Positions 7,621 through 16,935 of a stretch of DNA of 38,009 nucleotides are shown here, piece by piece (the stretch's first letter is position 1; the number at the start of each line of letters is the position of its first letter). The DNA comes from Candidatus Aeolococcus gillhamiae (lineage in GTDB: Bacteria > Chloroflexota > Dormibacteria > Aeolococcales > Aeolococcaceae). The stretch covers positions 1-38,009 of the forward strand of contig QHBU01000070.1 of the NCBI GenBank assembly GCA_003244045.1. Direction: 5' to 3'. Under the pieces are notes generated by a model, which had not been told where the DNA came from, searched no databases, and saw only the letters and a list, made by a program, of their open reading frames with translations. The translations under genes were made by a program, and so were the position numbers.

Positions 7621-8505
7621 TCACGCCTCGTCGGTGTAGATGGGGTTGAACGGGTACCACTGCTCGGGCACCCGGAGCAGGTCCGGCTCCAGGACGGTCG
7701 CGATCCGCTGGGTGATCACCTGCTCGTCGTCGTCCCTGTTGGCGTGGAACGGCTCACGGACGTGGACGTGGTAGCCGGCGTCCGACCTCCAGCAGCTGAT
7801 CGGGACCAGCGGCGACCCGGTGAGACGGGCAAGGGATGCCGGGCCCGTGCTGAACTGGACCGGTCCGTTGCAGAAGCGCACCTCAGTCGTCGGCCCGCCC
7901 TCGGGGATGTCGGTGAGGATGGCCACCCATCGCCCTTGGCGCAGCGCCCTGATCAGCCCGCGCGCCGCCGCCTCCGGGGCGAACAGCTCCATCTGCTTGA
8001 CCTTTCGCGACCACGCCAGCAGCGCGGTGATGGACGGTGTCCCGACCGGCGCCATCACCGTGGTCACGGGATGGCCGGCGGCGAGCGCCATGCTGGCCGC
8101 GATGTCCCAGCTCCCGAAATGGGCGAGGACAAGGATGCCACCGCGACCGGCGTCGCGGGTCTTGTGCAGGTTCTCCACGCCGACGATGTGGCCGTACTCG
8201 AACATCTCGTCGAGCCCGATGGCGTGGATCCAGATGGTGTCGATGATCATGCGCGAGTAGTTGCGGTAGCTGGCGCGCGCGCGCCGCCGAGCCTCCGCTG
8301 CGGGCAGGCCGCCGGCGGCACGGCTGTGCAGGTGCGCGCACAGGCGTCGCTTGCGCGGCGGTTGGAGCGCGTAGGTGATCACGCCGGCGGCGTCGGCGAT
8401 CGCGTAGCGCCGCCGGCCGATGGCGCGCAGCCCGCGCGCCGTCGCCTCGAACGCCACCTCCATCCATCTCGGTGGCCTGGTGATGACGGTGCTGGTGTCA
8501 GCCAC
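7621..8505 (-). CDS. LpxL/HtrB/PatA-like lysophospholipid acyltransferase
   Basis: GGILVLAHFGSWDIAASMALAAGHPVTTVMAPVG (HxxxWD-type motif); VAILTDIPEGGPTTEVRFCNGPVQFSTGPASLARLTGSPLVPI. Confidence 0.85.
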   Translation of the reverse strand: MADTSTVITRPPRWMEVAFEATARGLRAIGRRRYAIADAAGVITYALQPPRKRRLCAHLHSRAAGGLPAAEARRRARASYRNYSRMIIDTIWIHAIGLDEMFEYGHIVGVENLHKTRDAGRGGILVLAHFGSWDIAASMALAAGHPVTTVMAPVGTPSITALLAWSRKVKQMELFAPEAAARGLIRALRQGRWVAILTDIPEGGPTTEVRFCNGPVQFSTGPASLARLTGSPLVPISCWRSDAGYHVHVREPFHANRDDDEQVITQRIATVLEPDLLRVPEQWYPFNPIYTDEA

Positions 8506-9058
8506 CGCCCGCTTTCTGCACCGCCGCGGCGAGGCCGGTCACCCCGTCGAGGCCGGCGCCCGCGTAAACGATCTTGCCATTCTTGACCAGGTATACCGTG
8601 GGCACTGCATTGACGCTGTAGGCGGCTCCCGCGGTCAGATTGGGGTCGAGCAGAAGCGGGTAGCCGCAGTGGGGCGCGTACTGCTTGTGGTACGAGGCCA
8701 CTGTCTGCGCGGAGTCCTTCGCCGCATCGACGGCGAACACCTGCGTGTTGAGCCCGCACAGCTGCGCTGCCACCTGCTGGCAGTGCGCGCAGCCCGCCTC
8801 GAAGAATTCGACGACGTAAGGCTTGCCGGCTGCCGCCGAGGCAACGGTGACGTGCGCGCCACCCACCGCCTCGAGGCTGATCGCCGGCGCGGTTGTGCCG
8901 AGGGGAAGAAGGCGCGCCTGGGGCTTGATGAACGTCACCACCAGCACCAGCCCGACCGTGCCCACCGCGAAGAAGATGATCGCTCGACGCCACTCACGCC
9001 GCGTCGGCCGCCGGGTGATCCCGAGGTAGCCGGTTGGGGGGACGCGGCGATCGGGCAT
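8498..9058 (-). CDS. Membrane-anchored thioredoxin-like/redoxin protein
   Basis: N-terminal TM (AIIFFAVGTVGLVLVVTFI), AAGKPYVVEFFEAGCAHCQQVAAQLCGL with a CxxC active site, VNAVPTVYLVKNGKIVYAGAG with cis-Pro. Confidence 0.88.
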   Translation of the reverse strand: MPDRRVPPTGYLGITRRPTRREWRRAIIFFAVGTVGLVLVVTFIKPQARLLPLGTTAPAISLEAVGGAHVTVASAAAGKPYVVEFFEAGCAHCQQVAAQLCGLNTQVFAVDAAKDSAQTVASYHKQYAPHCGYPLLLDPNLTAGAAYSVNAVPTVYLVKNGKIVYAGAGLDGVTGLAAAVQKAGGG

Positions 9059-10560
9059 CAGTGCAGCGCGCTGGCGCCGCCGCCGGCCAGTGAGATCAGT
9101 GGGCCCGCGAAGGCCGCGAAGAGGAGCCCGAGCGCGGCAGTGGAGATCGCGGCGATGCGGGCGATCCGCGGCGTGGTGGTCACCGCGAACGGGGCCTCAC
9201 CGTTGTCGTCCGCGTACATCACCGCCAGCCAACGCACCACCGCGACGCCGCAGAGCACCAGCGCCATCGCCGCGATGCCCACGGCCCAACCCCGGCCGGC
9301 ATCGAGCGCCGACTCAGCAGCGAGAAGGCGGCCGAAGAATCCTGCCAGCGGCGGCAGCCCGGCCAGCCCGAGAAGTGCGAGTGAGAGGAAGGCGGCCGTG
9401 GTCGGCGCGCGCCGACCCGCGCCGCGGTACGCGTCAATGCCTGTGCCGAGGCCGGCCGCGTCGAAGACGCCGGCGAGGAGGAGCGACGCCAGCAGCGCGG
9501 CGGCTGCGCCGAGCAGCGAGAAGAGCAGTGCGGTGCTGCCGCCGGCCGTCGACCCGGCGATGCCGCGGCCGGTCGAGGCGAGCGCCAGCAGCAGGAAGCC
9601 CGCCTGCGCGATGGACAGGTCGGCGATGAGCCGCCGGATGGTCGTGGCACGCACCGCCAGGATTGCGCCGGAGAGCATCCCGGCCGCGGCAAGAATGTCG
9701 ACGAGGATGGTCCAGCGTGTGCTCCCGGGACCGAAGCCCTCGACGGCGAAGCGAGCCAGCACAAGGGTGCCGACGACGGCGCCCAGGGCCGAGCTGAACC
9801 CCGCGATGGCCCCAGGGGTGGCCTCCTGGACAAGCCTGGTCCACGCCTGCAGCGGAGGCGCGCCGACCGCCACCAGCAAACCGATCACCACTAGGGCGAT
9901 GCCCACCACCTCGAGTGGGCCGTCGATCGGAGCGCCGGTGACACGCGCCCCGGTTGCCAGCCGAGCCAGGTCGGTGGTGCCGACGGCGGCGTAGAGGAGC
10001 GTCATCCCGTACACGGTGGTCGCCATCGCCACGCCACCGGCGAGAAGCTGGCGGAACGCTGCCTCCGCGGTCTGCCCCGACGTTTTGGTCATAGCTGTCA
10101 GAAGCGCGAGCGCCACCAGGAGGACCGCGAACGCGACGACGAAAGCGGCCATCTCGCGCTGCGCCAGGAGAATCATCGCCGCGCCCGAGCTCACCTGGAG
10201 AAGCGCGCAAAACGCGCCCGCCCGTGCCGGGGCGCGGCGTGTGTACGCCTCAGAACCGAGCACGGTCAGCACCAGGGCCAGGAGCACCAGCACCGACCCG
10301 AAGACGTGGAAGCGATCGACCATCAGTCCCCCGCTGTACGCCGCCAGGCCGACACCCGCGGAGCTGGGGCGCATCGCCTGCAGCTCGATCATCGATGCGG
10401 TGAAGGCACCGACCGCCGCGAGCAGGGTGACCCACCGGTACAGTGACGGCCGTGTGCGAGGCCGCGCGGCGGCCACGGCCGCGCACACCAGGGCGCCAAA
10501 GCCGAGCATGACCGCGGGCAGGATCCCGAGCAGCACACCGAGACCGAAATTGCTGATCAC
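9058..10560 (-). CDS. nuoN: NADH-quinone oxidoreductase subunit N-like antiporter-fold protein (divergent)
   Basis: EAAFRQLLAGGVAMATTVYGMTLLYAAVGTTDLARLA; TIRRLIADLSIAQAGFLLLALA; LLGLAGLPPLAGFFGRL. GTG start at 10560 overlaps the nuoM stop (GTGA). Confidence 0.82.
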   Translation of the reverse strand: MISNFGLGVLLGILPAVMLGFGALVCAAVAAARPRTRPSLYRWVTLLAAVGAFTASMIELQAMRPSSAGVGLAAYSGGLMVDRFHVFGSVLVLLALVLTVLGSEAYTRRAPARAGAFCALLQVSSGAAMILLAQREMAAFVVAFAVLLVALALLTAMTKTSGQTAEAAFRQLLAGGVAMATTVYGMTLLYAAVGTTDLARLATGARVTGAPIDGPLEVVGIALVVIGLLVAVGAPPLQAWTRLVQEATPGAIAGFSSALGAVVGTLVLARFAVEGFGPGSTRWTILVDILAAAGMLSGAILAVRATTIRRLIADLSIAQAGFLLLALASTGRGIAGSTAGGSTALLFSLLGAAAALLASLLLAGVFDAAGLGTGIDAYRGAGRRAPTTAAFLSLALLGLAGLPPLAGFFGRLLAAESALDAGRGWAVGIAAMALVLCGVAVVRWLAVMYADDNGEAPFAVTTTPRIARIAAISTAALGLLFAAFAGPLISLAGGGASALH

Positions 10561-12287
10561 TGGGTGCCACCGAGAGACGCCGCAATGCGGACGAGACCGG
10601 TGCCGATGACCGGTACCACGCGGCCGGCGAGAAGTCCGAACGCCACCAGGAAGATGACCAGGGGCCACAGATAGCCGAGCTCGAGAGCCGTCGTGTCACG
10701 GACGCGCGCGAACTCCTCACGCACCGGGCCGAGGAACACCCGTTGCGCGGACCAGATCAGGGCTGCCGTGCTGACCGCGGTGCTCGCCATCACGAAGACG
10801 GTGGCGTAGGGGTGGACCGAGAACACCCCGCTGAACAGCATCAGCTCCGCGCTGAACCCCGCAAGCAGCGGCGCCCCCAGGGCGGCGAGGCAGGCAAAGA
10901 TCCAGAACCCTCCGAGCCGCGGCGCCTGCGCCGCCAGACCACCGAGCCGGTCCAACGGCGCGCTGCGCGTCCGTCCCTCGATGGCCCCGCAGAGCAGCAG
11001 CAACAGCGCGCTGCTCAACCCGCCGGCGACCAGCTGCAGAACGGCGCCGTCCAGCGAGATGCTGTTGGGCGCGGCCACGGCGAGGAGCACCAGCGACATC
11101 TGGCCGATGCTCACCGCGGCGACCATGCGCCGCAGCGTGGTCTGCGCGAGCGTCAGCAGGACCCCCCACAGCGCGCTGAGCACCGCGAGCACCATCAGCG
11201 CACTGCCGAAGCGCTGTGCCTGCGCCGGGAACAGCCCGAGCGCGAACCGGATCATCCCGTACCCGGAGAGCCGCACCAGCACGCCCGCGACCACAGCGGC
11301 AACGCCGGAGCTGGCGGTTGCGGTGGTGTCGAGCATCCAGGTGTGCACCGGCACGATGACGAAACCGATCGCAAACGCGGTGAACACGAGCCAGAATCCC
11401 GCCGCCGCCACCGGACCGGTGAGCGCTCCGGCGTTGCCAAGGTCGGTCAGGTCGGAGCTGTGCGCGCTGCTGTGCACCACCACAAGGAGGAAGCCGGTGA
11501 GGAGCAGCGCCCCGCTGATGAGCACGGCCACGCCGGCGCGCGTTGCCGTGCGCTCCCGGCCGGCTCCTCCGAAGCACCTGATCAGGAGGAAGAGCGGCGC
11601 CGCCTGCATGGCGAAGAACATCACGAACAGGACCAGGTCGGTGGCACAGAGGGCTCCGTTGACCGCCGTCTCGAGCAGCAGCAGCAGCCCGCAGTACAGG
11701 CGCAGCCGCTGCTGGCGCTTCCACGCCGCCAGGAACACCGATGTGAACACAAGGGTGCTGAGCACCAGCAGGCTCAGGGTCACCCCGTCGGCGCTCATGT
11801 GGTAGTGGATCGCGAAGGCGAAGTGGCTGATCCAGGTGGTGTTCTCCTCATGGAGCTGGTCCGGGGTGGCGGCAACCCCCAGCGAGATGGCCGTGAGGAG
11901 CGTGAAGAGGGTCAGCACCAGCGCTGCTGCCGCCGCGAACAGCGCGACCGAACGGATACGGCTGCGCTGCTCCGCGGTGCGTTCGGGCAGGAACACGATC
12001 ACCAGGGCCGCGACAGTGGTGATGAACACCACGGTGCTGAGCAGGACAGACGGCAGATCGAGGCCGGTGTTGGTGGGGGTCGTCGGCGTGGTCGCCGGGG
12101 CCGGCCTGGCCGCGGCGGGCGGCGGCAGCGAGAACGCCGCAGTGGGTGGCGCGGCGACGACCGGTGCGGTGGCGGCGCTGATCGACGGTGAGACCGCCGC
12201 GATGAGCGGGTGGAACGCGGCCGCCAAGCGTGGGGCCTGCTGCGCGGCCGTCGCGGCCGACCACAGTGTCTGCAGCGTCGCGCTCAC
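10557..12287 (-). CDS. nuoM: NADH-quinone oxidoreductase subunit M-like antiporter-fold protein (divergent; Ala/Pro-rich N-terminal extension)
   Basis: AFAIGFVIVPVHTWMLDTTATASSGVAAVVAGVLVRLSGYGMIRFALGLFP aligns column-for-column with the NuoM TM7-8 region. GTG start at 12287 overlaps the nuoL stop. The longer ORF (to 14312) is an out-of-frame artefact over nuoL. Confidence 0.82.
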   Translation of the reverse strand: MSATLQTLWSAATAAQQAPRLAAAFHPLIAAVSPSISAATAPVVAAPPTAAFSLPPPAAARPAPATTPTTPTNTGLDLPSVLLSTVVFITTVAALVIVFLPERTAEQRSRIRSVALFAAAAALVLTLFTLLTAISLGVAATPDQLHEENTTWISHFAFAIHYHMSADGVTLSLLVLSTLVFTSVFLAAWKRQQRLRLYCGLLLLLETAVNGALCATDLVLFVMFFAMQAAPLFLLIRCFGGAGRERTATRAGVAVLISGALLLTGFLLVVVHSSAHSSDLTDLGNAGALTGPVAAAGFWLVFTAFAIGFVIVPVHTWMLDTTATASSGVAAVVAGVLVRLSGYGMIRFALGLFPAQAQRFGSALMVLAVLSALWGVLLTLAQTTLRRMVAAVSIGQMSLVLLAVAAPNSISLDGAVLQLVAGGLSSALLLLLCGAIEGRTRSAPLDRLGGLAAQAPRLGGFWIFACLAALGAPLLAGFSAELMLFSGVFSVHPYATVFVMASTAVSTAALIWSAQRVFLGPVREEFARVRDTTALELGYLWPLVIFLVAFGLLAGRVVPVIGTGLVRIAASLGGTQ

Positions 12288-14335
12288 TGGATGGTCACCG
12301 GGAAATGGCCGGTCACGGCCAGAACCGACGCCGCCAGCAGGATGGCCACAACGACCAGGGCCGCCGCCATCGACAGCCCCACCCGGGCGCTGCGCAGGCG
12401 GCTCAGCGCCTCGCTGAGTGTGCCGACGCTCTCCCCCATCGCGGTGGGGATCGGTTCCAGCAGCTGCACGTCGAGGGTGTCCAGCGCCCGGCCGGCCGCG
12501 ACGAACCCGCGCGGGAGGAGAGCCGCGACGCGCTCGGCGGGGGTGGGGCCTGCCAGCGCCGTGCTCGCCCAGGCAAGGTGATCGCGGGCAGGGGCCGGCC
12601 GGCGACGCCGATCCGCGGAGAAGAGCCACCACGCGGCAGCTGCCCCGACGACCGCGAGAACGGCCGCAAGCGCGAGCGCGACCGTGTCGAACGGCAGGTC
12701 CTCGCGGACGCGGCCGTAGAAGACGAAGCGAGTGAAGCTGAGCCCGGTGACGGCCCCGCTGCCCACGGTGAAGGGGCCGATCCCGGGAAGGCCGGCCAGC
12801 GTGGCCGCGGCCCCGCCGGCGAGCGCGACCAGCACGGTGCGACGCAACCGCGCGTCCACCTCCCGAAGCCGGCTGACGTCGAAGCCGCGGCGCCTGGTGG
12901 CTTCGCCCGTGGCCGCGACGAAGTACACGCGGAACGCGTACACGGCGGTGAGGACGATGGTCACGAGCACGGCCGCCGCGACGATCACGCGAACCACGCT
13001 GCTGGCGTGCCCTCCGCCGGGCAGCGCGCCGCGGAGCGCCGACGAGAGCACGCTGTACGTGTTCAGCGTCAGTCCGCTGATCCCCAGCGCCCAACCGCCG
13101 AGCGCTAGCGTGGTGCGGGGCATGCGCTGCCGTCCGCCGCCGCAGTCGCGGAGCTCGTGGCTCCGAAATCCGCGGCTCAGGTTTCCCGCCGTGAGGAAGT
13201 ACGCCACCGCCAGGAATGAGCCGGTGAAGAGGAGGAACAGCGCCGCGCTGTAGCCGCCCACCCCGAAAGCGGCCAGCATCAGACCCGCCTGGCTGCTCAC
13301 GGCGAACAGACCGATCCGGAACACGTCTCGTTGTGCCAGCGCCAGCACGGCGCCCGCCACTGCAGCGATCGCGCCGACAACGGCGACGGCGGTGAGCAGG
13401 TGAGGCGCCTCGAGCAGGAGGGGATACACCCGTGCCAGCAGCAGACCCGCGGGGATCAGCGCGGACACGGCGATCAGCGCGAGCCCGGGAACCGGGGCGT
13501 CGAGCGCGCCGCTCAGCCAGAGGTGCATGGGACCGATGGTGGCGCGGATGGAGGCGGCAACCACGAAGAGAACCGCGAGCACTACAAGGGTTCTCGCGCC
13601 CACCCCGGCCACCGCGCCGAGACGGCCGATGTGCCACTGCAGAGCCAGCTGGGAGAAGGAGAAGGGGTCGTTGCTGAGCTGGCCGTTGGTCGGTGTCCGC
13701 TGGCCGATCGAAGTGCCGAACTTGGCGAAGCTCATCACCAGGCCGAGCAACAGGGCCAGGTCGGCGCTGCGCAGTACCACGAACGTCCGCGTCGCGGCGG
13801 CCGCACTGGCCGGCCGCTGCCAGTGGTGCGCGGCCAGCATCCATGCGGCCACGCCGGCCACCTCCCACCCCAGCCAGAACTGGAACAGGTTGGGGCTGCT
13901 GACCAGCGCCAGGACACCGAAGGTCAGCAGTCCCATGACCCAGAAGAAGCGCCGGAAACCGTCGTCGCCTCTCATCGAGACGAGCGCGTGCACCTGGGTG
14001 ATGACCGAGAGGAAGAGGACGGCGAACATGAACGTCACGCTCAGAGGGTCGACGCGGATGCCCCAGAAGACGCCGAAGTCGGCAGGCACCGTCGGTGGGC
14101 CGATGCCGGTGGGCGACGTCGTCTGCAGGTCCCAGAACGTCTGAGTGTTCTCGTACACCGGGATCACATGGGTGAGCCGGAACACCAGCACCACCAGGGA
14201 CAGAGCCAGCGCGAGGCTTGTCAGTGCGACCCCGGCCTGGGCGGCACGCCGAGGCGACTCGGCGAGGAATGACACGGCGACCCCGACCAGCGGGAGAAGC
14301 ACCACCGCCCACGTGAGGTTGAGGATGATCGCCAT
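12284..14335 (-). CDS. nuoL: NADH-quinone oxidoreductase subunit L-like antiporter-fold protein (divergent)
   Basis: DPLSVTFMFAVLFLSVITQVHALVSMRGDDGFRRFFWVMGLLTFGVLALVSSPNLFQFWLGWEVAGVAAWMLAAHH; C-terminal extension ending in a final TM. Confidence 0.85.
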   Translation of the reverse strand: MAIILNLTWAVVLLPLVGVAVSFLAESPRRAAQAGVALTSLALALSLVVLVFRLTHVIPVYENTQTFWDLQTTSPTGIGPPTVPADFGVFWGIRVDPLSVTFMFAVLFLSVITQVHALVSMRGDDGFRRFFWVMGLLTFGVLALVSSPNLFQFWLGWEVAGVAAWMLAAHHWQRPASAAAATRTFVVLRSADLALLLGLVMSFAKFGTSIGQRTPTNGQLSNDPFSFSQLALQWHIGRLGAVAGVGARTLVVLAVLFVVAASIRATIGPMHLWLSGALDAPVPGLALIAVSALIPAGLLLARVYPLLLEAPHLLTAVAVVGAIAAVAGAVLALAQRDVFRIGLFAVSSQAGLMLAAFGVGGYSAALFLLFTGSFLAVAYFLTAGNLSRGFRSHELRDCGGGRQRMPRTTLALGGWALGISGLTLNTYSVLSSALRGALPGGGHASSVVRVIVAAAVLVTIVLTAVYAFRVYFVAATGEATRRRGFDVSRLREVDARLRRTVLVALAGGAAATLAGLPGIGPFTVGSGAVTGLSFTRFVFYGRVREDLPFDTVALALAAVLAVVGAAAAWWLFSADRRRRPAPARDHLAWASTALAGPTPAERVAALLPRGFVAAGRALDTLDVQLLEPIPTAMGESVGTLSEALSRLRSARVGLSMAAALVVVAILLAASVLAVTGHFPVTIQ

Positions 14336-14336
14336 C

Positions 14337-14651
14337 TCAGGCGTCCAGCTCGGTCATCTCGTCCAGGTCAGCGGTGTCCGACCGTCGCCAGAGCAGTGCC
14401 GCAACCGCACCCCCGACGAGCAGCTCGGCGCAGAGAGCTGCCAGCGTGAAGAGCGCGAGCGCGTCGCCGAGCCGGGGCACGGAGCCGTCCCCGCTCTCGG
14501 CGAAACCCACAGCAGCCACCAACGGCGCGCTGAAGAGCACGCTCAGCGAGGCAAGCGCCGCGATGACGTTGCGCCGCGTGGTGACCCCGAAGAGTCCGAT
14601 GGCGAACAGCACGGCGCTGAGCACCGCGTAGTGTGCCGGTCCTACGTTCAC
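14337..14651 (-). CDS. nuoK: NADH-quinone oxidoreductase subunit K-like protein
   Basis: 104 aa; HYAVLSAVLFAIGLFGVTTRRNVIAALASLSVLFSAPLVAAVGF...LFTLAALCAELLVGGAVAALLWRR. Confidence 0.85.
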   Translation of the reverse strand: MNVGPAHYAVLSAVLFAIGLFGVTTRRNVIAALASLSVLFSAPLVAAVGFAESGDGSVPRLGDALALFTLAALCAELLVGGAVAALLWRRSDTADLDEMTELDA

Positions 14652-15253
14652 CGGCCCGCCCCAGCGTCGCTTCCCGCTCGCTGCGCGCGCGCCGCCGCGC
14701 GGTGCTCGCGGCGCAGCCGCGCGCGCTGCTCGCGCAGCCGGCGCTGCTCGGCGGCCCGGTCCAGGACGCGCTCGTCGTCCCCGGTTCTGCCGATCATCAG
14801 CGCACCGCCGACGGCGAGCACAGCGAGGATGGCGGCGACGCCGAGGCTGATCGGCGTTCGGTAGTGGAGAAGGGTCAGCAGGCTCTGGCCGCCGCTCGGC
14901 GTGTGCGCGGTGTCATCGACGCGAGTGTTGGTGACCCAGACTAGCAGCACCCCGATGCCACCGGCGACCGCGGCGCTCAGTGGCCACGCAGTCGCGGGGC
15001 CGGGCACATCGCCGAGCAGCGGTGCGTACCCGTAACGTCGCAGCGCGGCAGCCACCAGCAGCAGGCAGCCGCTCGGTGCCACCAGCGCGACGGCGCCGAG
15101 CAGGTAGGCACCGGCGGCGATGAGCAGGATGCCGACGAGCACGCCACCGGCGAGCACTGCGAGCAGCGCCATGCGTGTGGACGGTGCGAGCACGGCGCCG
15201 AGAGCCGCGAGGACGATCAGAATCGCGAGTACGTAGAACACCGCGGTGCTCAC
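14648..15253 (-). CDS. nuoJ: NADH-quinone oxidoreductase subunit J-like protein with Arg-rich C-terminal tail
   Basis: Position before nuoK with ATGA overlap; multi-TM pattern; tail EQRRLREQRARLRREHRAAARAQRAG. GTG start. Confidence 0.7.
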   Translation of the reverse strand: MSTAVFYVLAILIVLAALGAVLAPSTRMALLAVLAGGVLVGILLIAAGAYLLGAVALVAPSGCLLLVAAALRRYGYAPLLGDVPGPATAWPLSAAVAGGIGVLLVWVTNTRVDDTAHTPSGGQSLLTLLHYRTPISLGVAAILAVLAVGGALMIGRTGDDERVLDRAAEQRRLREQRARLRREHRAAARAQRAGSDAGAGR

Positions 15254-15388: not shown

Positions 15389-15781
15389 TCAAACCGCGTC
15401 GTCGTCCTCGAGAGCCCGATGCATGAGAGGGGGCGGCCTGTCGTCCTCATCGACGACACGCTCGAAGAGCAGGATCAAGGTCACGGCGAGCAGCGTCAGG
15501 ATGATGCCGCCGGCCGCAACCGGGTCGAGATGCACGCCGACCACGGGAACGGCGATCCCGGCGTCCCAGGCGCCCAGCCTGGCGCCGTCGGCCACTGTGC
15601 GCTGTCCCACGATGCCGGCGACGATGAGCAGGCCGCCGGCGGTGCCGAGGTGGTAGAGCCAGTTGCGCCCGCGGCGCGCCAGGAATGCTGACACCGACGC
15701 GATCACAGCGCCAGCGAGCACGCCAAGGACGCCGAGCGCGACCTGGCCCGGCGTCGGCGGCAGCGGCACCGCGAGGATCAC
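15389..15781 (-). CDS. Small membrane protein of unknown function (about 130 aa)
   Basis: GTG start overlaps the mnmA stop (GTGA); at least three hydrophobic segments; acidic tail VDEDDRPPPLMHRALEDDDAV. Confidence 0.6.
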   Translation of the reverse strand: MILAVPLPPTPGQVALGVLGVLAGAVIASVSAFLARRGRNWLYHLGTAGGLLIVAGIVGQRTVADGARLGAWDAGIAVPVVGVHLDPVAAGGIILTLLAVTLILLFERVVDEDDRPPPLMHRALEDDDAV

Positions 15782-16935
15782 GTGAGCGCCACCGTGCCGC
15801 CGCCGATCACCTCGTCGCCTTCGAAGAGGACGCCCGCCTGGCCCGGCGCCACCTGGGTCACCGGCGGATCGCAGCGCAGAAGCAGGGCGTCGTTGCCAAG
15901 CTGAACCACGGCGACCTGGGCCGGGGCCGAGTGCGCGCGAAGCTGCAACGCCAGCGGCGCGTCGTGCGCGGGGCGCTGGTCGATCCAGTGGATGTCGGTG
16001 AGGCGCACGGTGTCGCGATCCAGCGCGCTGCGCGGGCCGACGGTGACGGTGTTGGCCATCGCGTCGACAGCGGTCACGAAGAGCGGGGCCTCGTCGGGGC
16101 GTGACGGCGGCAGCCCCAGGCCGGACCGCTGGCCCACCGTGTAGAAGGGCACCCCGCGGTGCTCGCCGACCACCGCGCCGGCCTGATCGACCATGGCGCC
16201 GGGACGGAAGCGGCCCCGCAGGCGCCGCTCCAGCTCGGCGCGCACCGAGCCGTCGACGAAGCACAGCTCCTGCGAGTCTGGCTTGGCCGCCGTGATCAGG
16301 CCGAGATCGGCGGCATGGCGCCGCACCTCGTCCTTGGACGTCTCTGCGCCAAGGGGGAATACGGAGCTGAGCAGCTGCTCCTGCTCGAGGCGATGGAGCG
16401 TGTAGGCCTGGTCCTTGGCCGCCGCCCGGGCACGATGCAGAGACGCGGCGTTCCCCCGCCGACCGATGCGCGCGTAGTGGCCTGTGGCGAGGTGGGTCGC
16501 CCCGGCGGCCCGGGCCCGGTCGAGCAGCACCCCGAACTTGATCACCTGGTTGCAGCGCACGCACGGGTTGGGCGTGCGCCCGGCCGCGTACTCGTCCTCG
16601 AACGGAGCCACCACGTCGCGCTGGAACTCCGGCTCCAGGTTCCAGCTGTAGTGCGGGATGCCAATGCTGGTCGCGACGCGGCGGGCGTCCTCGACGGCGT
16701 CGATGGAGCAGCAGCCGCGGTCGCGCCGGCGCTCTCCGTCGCGCGGCCACATTGCCAGGGTGATGCCGACGGTGCGCAACCCGCGTTCCGCACAGCGCGC
16801 CGCCGCCACCGATGAATCCACCCCGCCGGACATGGCCACCGCGACGACGGCGTCACCGGGCAGCAGCTCGAAGGGGTCGTCGGGGATGCGGGCTGCCCGG
16901 CGTCCAGGCGCGGCCGGCGCGGCCGCAGCGGTCAT
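15778..16935 (-). CDS. mnmA: tRNA 2-thiouridine(34) synthase MnmA
   Basis: VVAVAMSGGVDSSVAAARCAERG PP-loop; GCCSIDAVEDARRVA; GRTPNPCVRCNQVIKFG; TVGQRSGLGLP. Confidence 0.94.
   Translation of the reverse strand: MTAAAAPAAPGRRAARIPDDPFELLPGDAVVAVAMSGGVDSSVAAARCAERGLRTVGITLAMWPRDGERRRDRGCCSIDAVEDARRVATSIGIPHYSWNLEPEFQRDVVAPFEDEYAAGRTPNPCVRCNQVIKFGVLLDRARAAGATHLATGHYARIGRRGNAASLHRARAAAKDQAYTLHRLEQEQLLSSVFPLGAETSKDEVRRHAADLGLITAAKPDSQELCFVDGSVRAELERRLRGRFRPGAMVDQAGAVVGEHRGVPFYTVGQRSGLGLPPSRPDEAPLFVTAVDAMANTVTVGPRSALDRDTVRLTDIHWIDQRPAHDAPLALQLRAHSAPAQVAVVQLGNDALLLRCDPPVTQVAPGQAGVLFEGDEVIGGGTVALT

Follow-up and report, generated by a model that had tools for sequence, protein, structure and literature searches.

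An orphan NuoJKLMN cluster, putatively a non-pumping complex I membrane arm, in four families of one bacterial class

The window analyzed here, a 38,009-nucleotide stretch forming contig C70 of the host genome (G000), carries five genes homologous to the complex I membrane-arm subunits NuoJ, NuoK, NuoL, NuoM and NuoN. These proteins carry replacements at most positions of the proton path, and the genes are under purifying selection. The best reading, to which a probability of about one half is given, is that they would form a membrane assembly that does not pump and is retained because of a structural or regulatory role.

Gene content and family identity

All five reading frames lie on the minus strand from 15253 to 9058, contain no internal stops and overlap or abut, with 4-bp overlaps at J/K, L/M and M/N. 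The original prediction of a NuoJKLMN-like cluster at 9058-15253 was thus correct in its five homologues and in the intactness of their frames. The NuoK-like gene (14337..14651, 104 aa) was identified by PF00420 (2.5e-13), the NuoL-like gene (12284..14335, 683 aa) by PF00361 (1.2e-26), PF00662 and TIGR01974 (2.8e-66), the NuoM-like gene (10557..12287, 576 aa) by PF00361 (1.1e-37) and TIGR01972 (306 bits, above the cut-off), and the NuoN-like gene (9058..10560, 500 aa) by PF00361 (4.4e-29) and TIGR01770, in each case together with alignment. The Pfam and NCBIfam models therefore place K, L, M and N in the membrane-arm families of complex I; TIGR01974, TIGR01972 and TIGR01770 are the best or second-best models for L, M and N, and the cut-off is exceeded by M only. 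The NuoM-like protein bears an Ala/Pro-rich extension at its N-terminus. The NuoJ-like gene (14648..15253, 201 aa) has no Pfam match above the cut-off; its membership was established by a profile-to-profile comparison with canonical NuoJ (hhalign probability 99.2, E 3e-19), its position ahead of nuoK and alignment. The C-terminal tail of this protein is Arg-rich. Mrp antiporters were considered as an identity and set aside, as K, L, M and N score higher with Nuo models than with Mrp models. At the locus itself, no MrpE, MrpF or MrpG partner was noticed.

On the same strand, a TlpA/ResA-like thioredoxin gene (8498..9058, AhpC-TSA/Redoxin matches) overlaps the nuoN stop codon. By synteny, a gene for a small membrane protein of 130 aa (15389..15781, minus strand) lies between nuoJ and mnmA (15778..16935, minus strand); the latter serves as the syntenic anchor in all four families discussed below and is placed outside the putative assembly. 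No NuoA-I gene was found among the window genes in the cluster or beside it, as had been predicted. The host is a metagenome-assembled genome (MAG) of 2.96 Mb (84% complete, 5.9% contaminated), and its nearest named relative is Candidatus Dormiibacterota bacterium palsa_875, with 68% identity in NuoL. From the name of this relative, the host is taken as Dormibacterota-like.

Compared with the membrane arm of complex I, especially that of the 11-subunit nuoABCDHIJKLMN form, the five subunits, their order and their overlapping frames are alike and directly homologous; however, the orphan locus lacks A, B, C, D, H and I, and also E, F and G. NuoH and the NuoB/C/D quinone site, which belong to a functional complex I, are therefore missing at the locus.

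Replacement of the proton-path residues

Residues were assigned by MAFFT alignment to the E. coli subunits, with E. coli numbering. In NuoK, E36 is replaced by S and E72 is kept. NuoL keeps E144, R175 and D178 and shows K229R, H334L, H338G and K342A, a gap at H254 and loss of K399/D400. NuoM shows E144A, K173R, K234G, K265R, H322Q and H348G, with H241 and E407 kept, and NuoN shows E104A, E133A, K158R, K217A, H224Q, K247A and K395R, with E154 kept. In NuoJ, the YAGA/pi-bulge motif is missing. As a result, the Lys/Glu pairs and central lysines of NuoL/M/N and the E-channel glutamates of NuoK are not intact as sets. The alignment bears out the substitutions that the original prediction had read by eye in NuoK, in NuoM (E144A, K234G, K265R) and in NuoN (E133 to A, K217A, K247A), and also the absence of the NuoJ motif. 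In NuoL, its calls on E144, D178, K229, H334, H338, K342 and K399/D400 hold, whereas the proposed H254A is a gap. Its wider statement, that residues were lost in every subunit, is true of every subunit but not of every residue, since several are kept (e.g., NuoK E72 and NuoN E154).

Misalignment was excluded as a source of these differences, because the same alignment recovers the canonical residues in the host's canonical Nuo proteins and in G045, a relative from the host's family. The host canonical NuoL lacks E144 and R175 as well, and the other listed residues are kept in canonical Nuo. NuoL E144 is not diagnostic here, because the host canonical protein has Gly at this position. The TMH5 glutamate (E. 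coli E144) is replaced by Gly or Ala in the canonical NuoL of this class, as seen in the host copy (L008:7481-9448 on G000 C156) and in those of G159, G045, G135 and G251, and the remaining key residues of canonical NuoL are largely intact despite this loss.

The three antiporter-like subunits of the window hold only 3 lysines in 1,759 residues, compared with 23 in the host's canonical copies and 24 in G045. Per L+M+N set, the predicted membrane core contains 14-20 Lys, Asp, Glu and His residues instead of 28.6. The charges were not relocated, and no substitute charges appear within the membrane core. A part of the Lys to Arg exchanges may stem from high G+C content after lysine had become dispensable. 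Alignment tables of relatives indicate that the losses are clade-wide, and the replacements differ from lineage to lineage and between genera. Among the orphans, NuoM D135 is present in 27/27, NuoL D178 in 23/27 and NuoM H241 in most; no tabulated proton-path residue is shared by all of them, NuoL D178 and NuoM H241 being missing in family f2. A paper on Mrp calls the key lysines of these subunits essential and "absolutely conserved", and it gives the Lys of TMH7 and the Glu of TMH5 as invariant, essential pairs (PMC7419157). Mrp cation/proton antiporters likewise consist of antiporter-like subunits standing alone without a redox module (PMC7419157); however, the Lys/Glu residues are retained in Mrp and not in the orphan JKLMN.

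Purifying selection on the cluster

Pairwise omega values (Nei-Gojobori) are 0.07-0.36 for the orphan J to N genes; mnmA gives 0.15-0.33 and the canonical copies give 0.03-0.25. The orphan genes are under purifying selection close to that on the flanking mnmA. At positions invariant in canonical sequences, the f1 orphans retain 89% of Arg, 71% of Gly/Pro, 41% of other residues and 28% of Lys/Glu/Asp/His. For the window alone, the comparison of retention against all other classes gave a Fisher p of 0.007, a descriptive value, the sites not being independent. A pseudo-operon was rejected on the basis of the intact frames and of omega far below 1, in agreement with the original opinion that the cluster is not in decay. 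Since selection still maintains JKLMN, it probably performs a job that nobody has described.

Distribution and neighbouring genes

JKLMN without BCDHI was found beside mnmA in all four sampled families (f1, f2, f3 and f4) of the class, whose members are soil bacteria. About 60 loci were collected in total (in f1, most of 32 genomes), with genes called by a simple custom script; many of the relatives are incomplete MAGs, and some loci end at contig edges. No description of a JKLMN-only cluster was found in open-licence papers. Very divergent JKLMN, with 26-30% identity and lower G+C, were observed in G063 (L109:5611-11678), G217 (L108) and G218 (L106); the N protein of G063 was matched in a profile comparison.

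Two members differ in gene content. G045 possesses a full nuoABCDHIJKLMN at the same place, adjoining mnmA and the same small membrane protein, and its proton-path residues are canonical and intact. In G207 (genus g135), nuoA and JKLMN are kept and about half of the residues are lost; its nuoA (L090:10581-10883, 100 aa) is directly ahead of J, whereas BCDHI have disappeared.

The neighbours vary by family. The small membrane protein occupies this position in almost all f1 relatives, G045 among them, and matches zero Pfam families. Its comparison with the small proteins of f3 and f2 gave an hhalign probability of 88-90%; with between-family homology at only this level, a universal sixth subunit was dropped. 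The TlpA-like gene is present in G000, G054, G127, G204, G215 and G216 and absent from palsa_875, G159 and G045; as it occurs in some genera only, it was dropped as a partner. In f3, a conserved FNR-type FAD/NAD-binding oxidoreductase (PF00175/PF00970) lies between the small membrane gene and nuoJ (e.g., L048:11210-11998) and is a possible partner there. The 514-aa gene ahead of J in f2, considered as a NuoCD candidate, is a polyprenyl synthetase, and f4 has other genes at this place, some of them ABC-transporter-like. BLAST revealed no redox genes hidden between mnmA and nuoJ.

Canonical complex I in the carriers

A search of the host genome for a second, canonical nuo recovered an operon on G000 C156 comprising the end of D and then E to N. 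It holds the single NuoH and the single NuoD of this genome. Nearly all orphan carriers also possess a canonical nuo operon, and one full-strength NuoH copy was counted in nearly all of them, compared with two in G045. A third nuo-like piece was seen in the host MAG (L009:1-2495, on the 3.9 kb contig C129), comprising an intact gene for a NuoM-like protein, the beginning of one for a NuoN-like protein and, judged by eye, a short protein resembling the NuoL C-terminus; this is a tiny contig in a MAG with contamination.

The presence of canonical operons in the carriers leads to the next best explanation after a non-conducting assembly. The orphan JKLMN might take the place of the canonical JKLMN on canonical NuoA-I. 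The resulting NADH:quinone oxidoreductase would pump little or not at all and act as a gear, allowing NADH oxidation against a high proton-motive force. The retention of the five membrane-arm genes as a set fits this idea, and the incomplete nuo2 cluster of Streptomyces coelicolor (SCO4599-4608), whose function is unclear and which lacks C, D, E, F, G and L, has been suggested to contribute to a hybrid machine (PMC9239103). Both clusters are second, incomplete nuo clusters beside a canonical operon; however, the orphan cluster lacks the quinone module and has all three antiporter-like subunits. The exchange is nevertheless rather unlikely. The orphan arm is from a different and distant complex I (the window N is 28% identical to the host canonical N), and J and K, which would be needed to contact canonical NuoH and NuoA, are among the changed subunits. 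Additionally, G063 (91% complete) has the cluster and no NuoH was seen in it, for which an assembly gap could account.

Origin from an 11-subunit complex I

In a concatenated L+M+N tree, the sequences of the mnmA locus form one group (support 100) adjoining the full 11-subunit operon of G193. In a larger tree, G045 and G207 are sisters (support 100) and are placed with the f1 orphans (94-95). From the full operon of G045 and the partial one of G207 at this place, the cluster is concluded to descend from a second complex I of 11 subunits (nuoABCDHIJKLMN) whose redox and quinone module was lost. G045, in which this locus still has the complete operon and the canonical residues, shows the direction of the change. 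If lost genes do not return, the loss in G207 must be separate at least from that in the other orphans, and about four losses would be counted on the best tree. The redox and quinone module was thus probably lost several times, with all five antiporter-arm genes retained each time.

A different history, compatible with any function, would be one ancient loss, after which the G045/G207 lineage regained a full operon. In its favour, 27/27 orphans share an Arg at E. coli NuoL H358 that is absent in G045 and G207. However, the L+M+N tree places these two genomes with the f1 orphans, grouping of all orphans together is mildly rejected (p-AU 0.03), and the G045 operon is at the same locus with flanks identical in kind. 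This history is therefore considered improbable.

Possible function of the orphan arm

The preferred explanation is a sealed, non-conducting arm. The sequences show that B, C, D, H, I and usually A have disappeared from the locus with J-K-L-M-N staying together, and that proton-path residues have been replaced in a lineage-specific manner with no new membrane-core charges. The five proteins may still assemble like the distal arm of complex I. AlphaFold2 models built from two sequences each had a pLDDT of 38 for NuoM and 37 for NuoL, too low for the models to be used. Lacking a redox partner, such an assembly would receive no energy from electron transfer and would conduct no protons, and the loss of charged residues would close a path through which an uncoupled antiporter arm could leak protons. 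Its role would then be structural or regulatory. If the role were purely structural, retention of the whole set of five, including the quinone-side J and K, would be hard to account for. The original suggestion was a non-pumping or repurposed arm; the first half is favored, because residues known as essential are lost from the sequences, whereas repurposing goes a conjectural step further. More tentative is the broader proposal of a stand-alone, class-wide NuoJKLMN that handles neither electrons nor protons, has a role unrelated to complex I, and was reached several times in parallel through loss of the redox module.

A different conduction route is conceivable, because some charged residues persist (NuoM D135, NuoL D178 and NuoM H241). 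Several systems have adopted antiporter-like proteins as transporters, and by analogy with Mrp, DAB and the cyanobacterial CO2-uptake complexes, the arm might move Na+, K+ or CO2/bicarbonate through an altered path. That no tabulated residue is common to all orphans and that no soluble partner is conserved speak against it, and such a transporter is regarded as doubtful. A DabA (UPF0753) gene, which accompanies the NuoL-like DabB in DAB-type uptake complexes, was not noticed among the neighbours at the locus.

Slow decay of a useless remnant, left after loss of the redox module and not yet deleted, would predict the observed variation of proton-path residues between genera and the lower conservation of orphan L, M and N relative to the canonical copies in the same genomes, but it is already disfavoured and quite improbable. 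Five frames totalling about 2,060 codons have stayed intact in dozens of genomes with identities as low as 26-40%, every pair gives an omega far below 1 and similar to that of mnmA, and Gly, Pro and Arg positions are selectively retained.

Significance for complex I

The 2M complex I of Nitrospira, green complex I and the Manganitrophaceae Complex_I_3 indicate that the membrane arm is evolutionarily modular (PMC9040806). Those systems gain or swap pumping subunits inside a complex I; in contrast, the orphan cluster has lost the redox module and the pumping residues. A question in the study of complex I is which residues serve pumping and which serve only the building of the arm. Evolution in this class appears to have preserved the arm and dispensed with the pump, and a full state resembling the ancestor, a partial state and several end states occur side by side. 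These clusters therefore offer a natural series for telling structural from catalytic positions. Moreover, an independent function of the arm, if there is one, would mean that complex I subunits do something so far undescribed.
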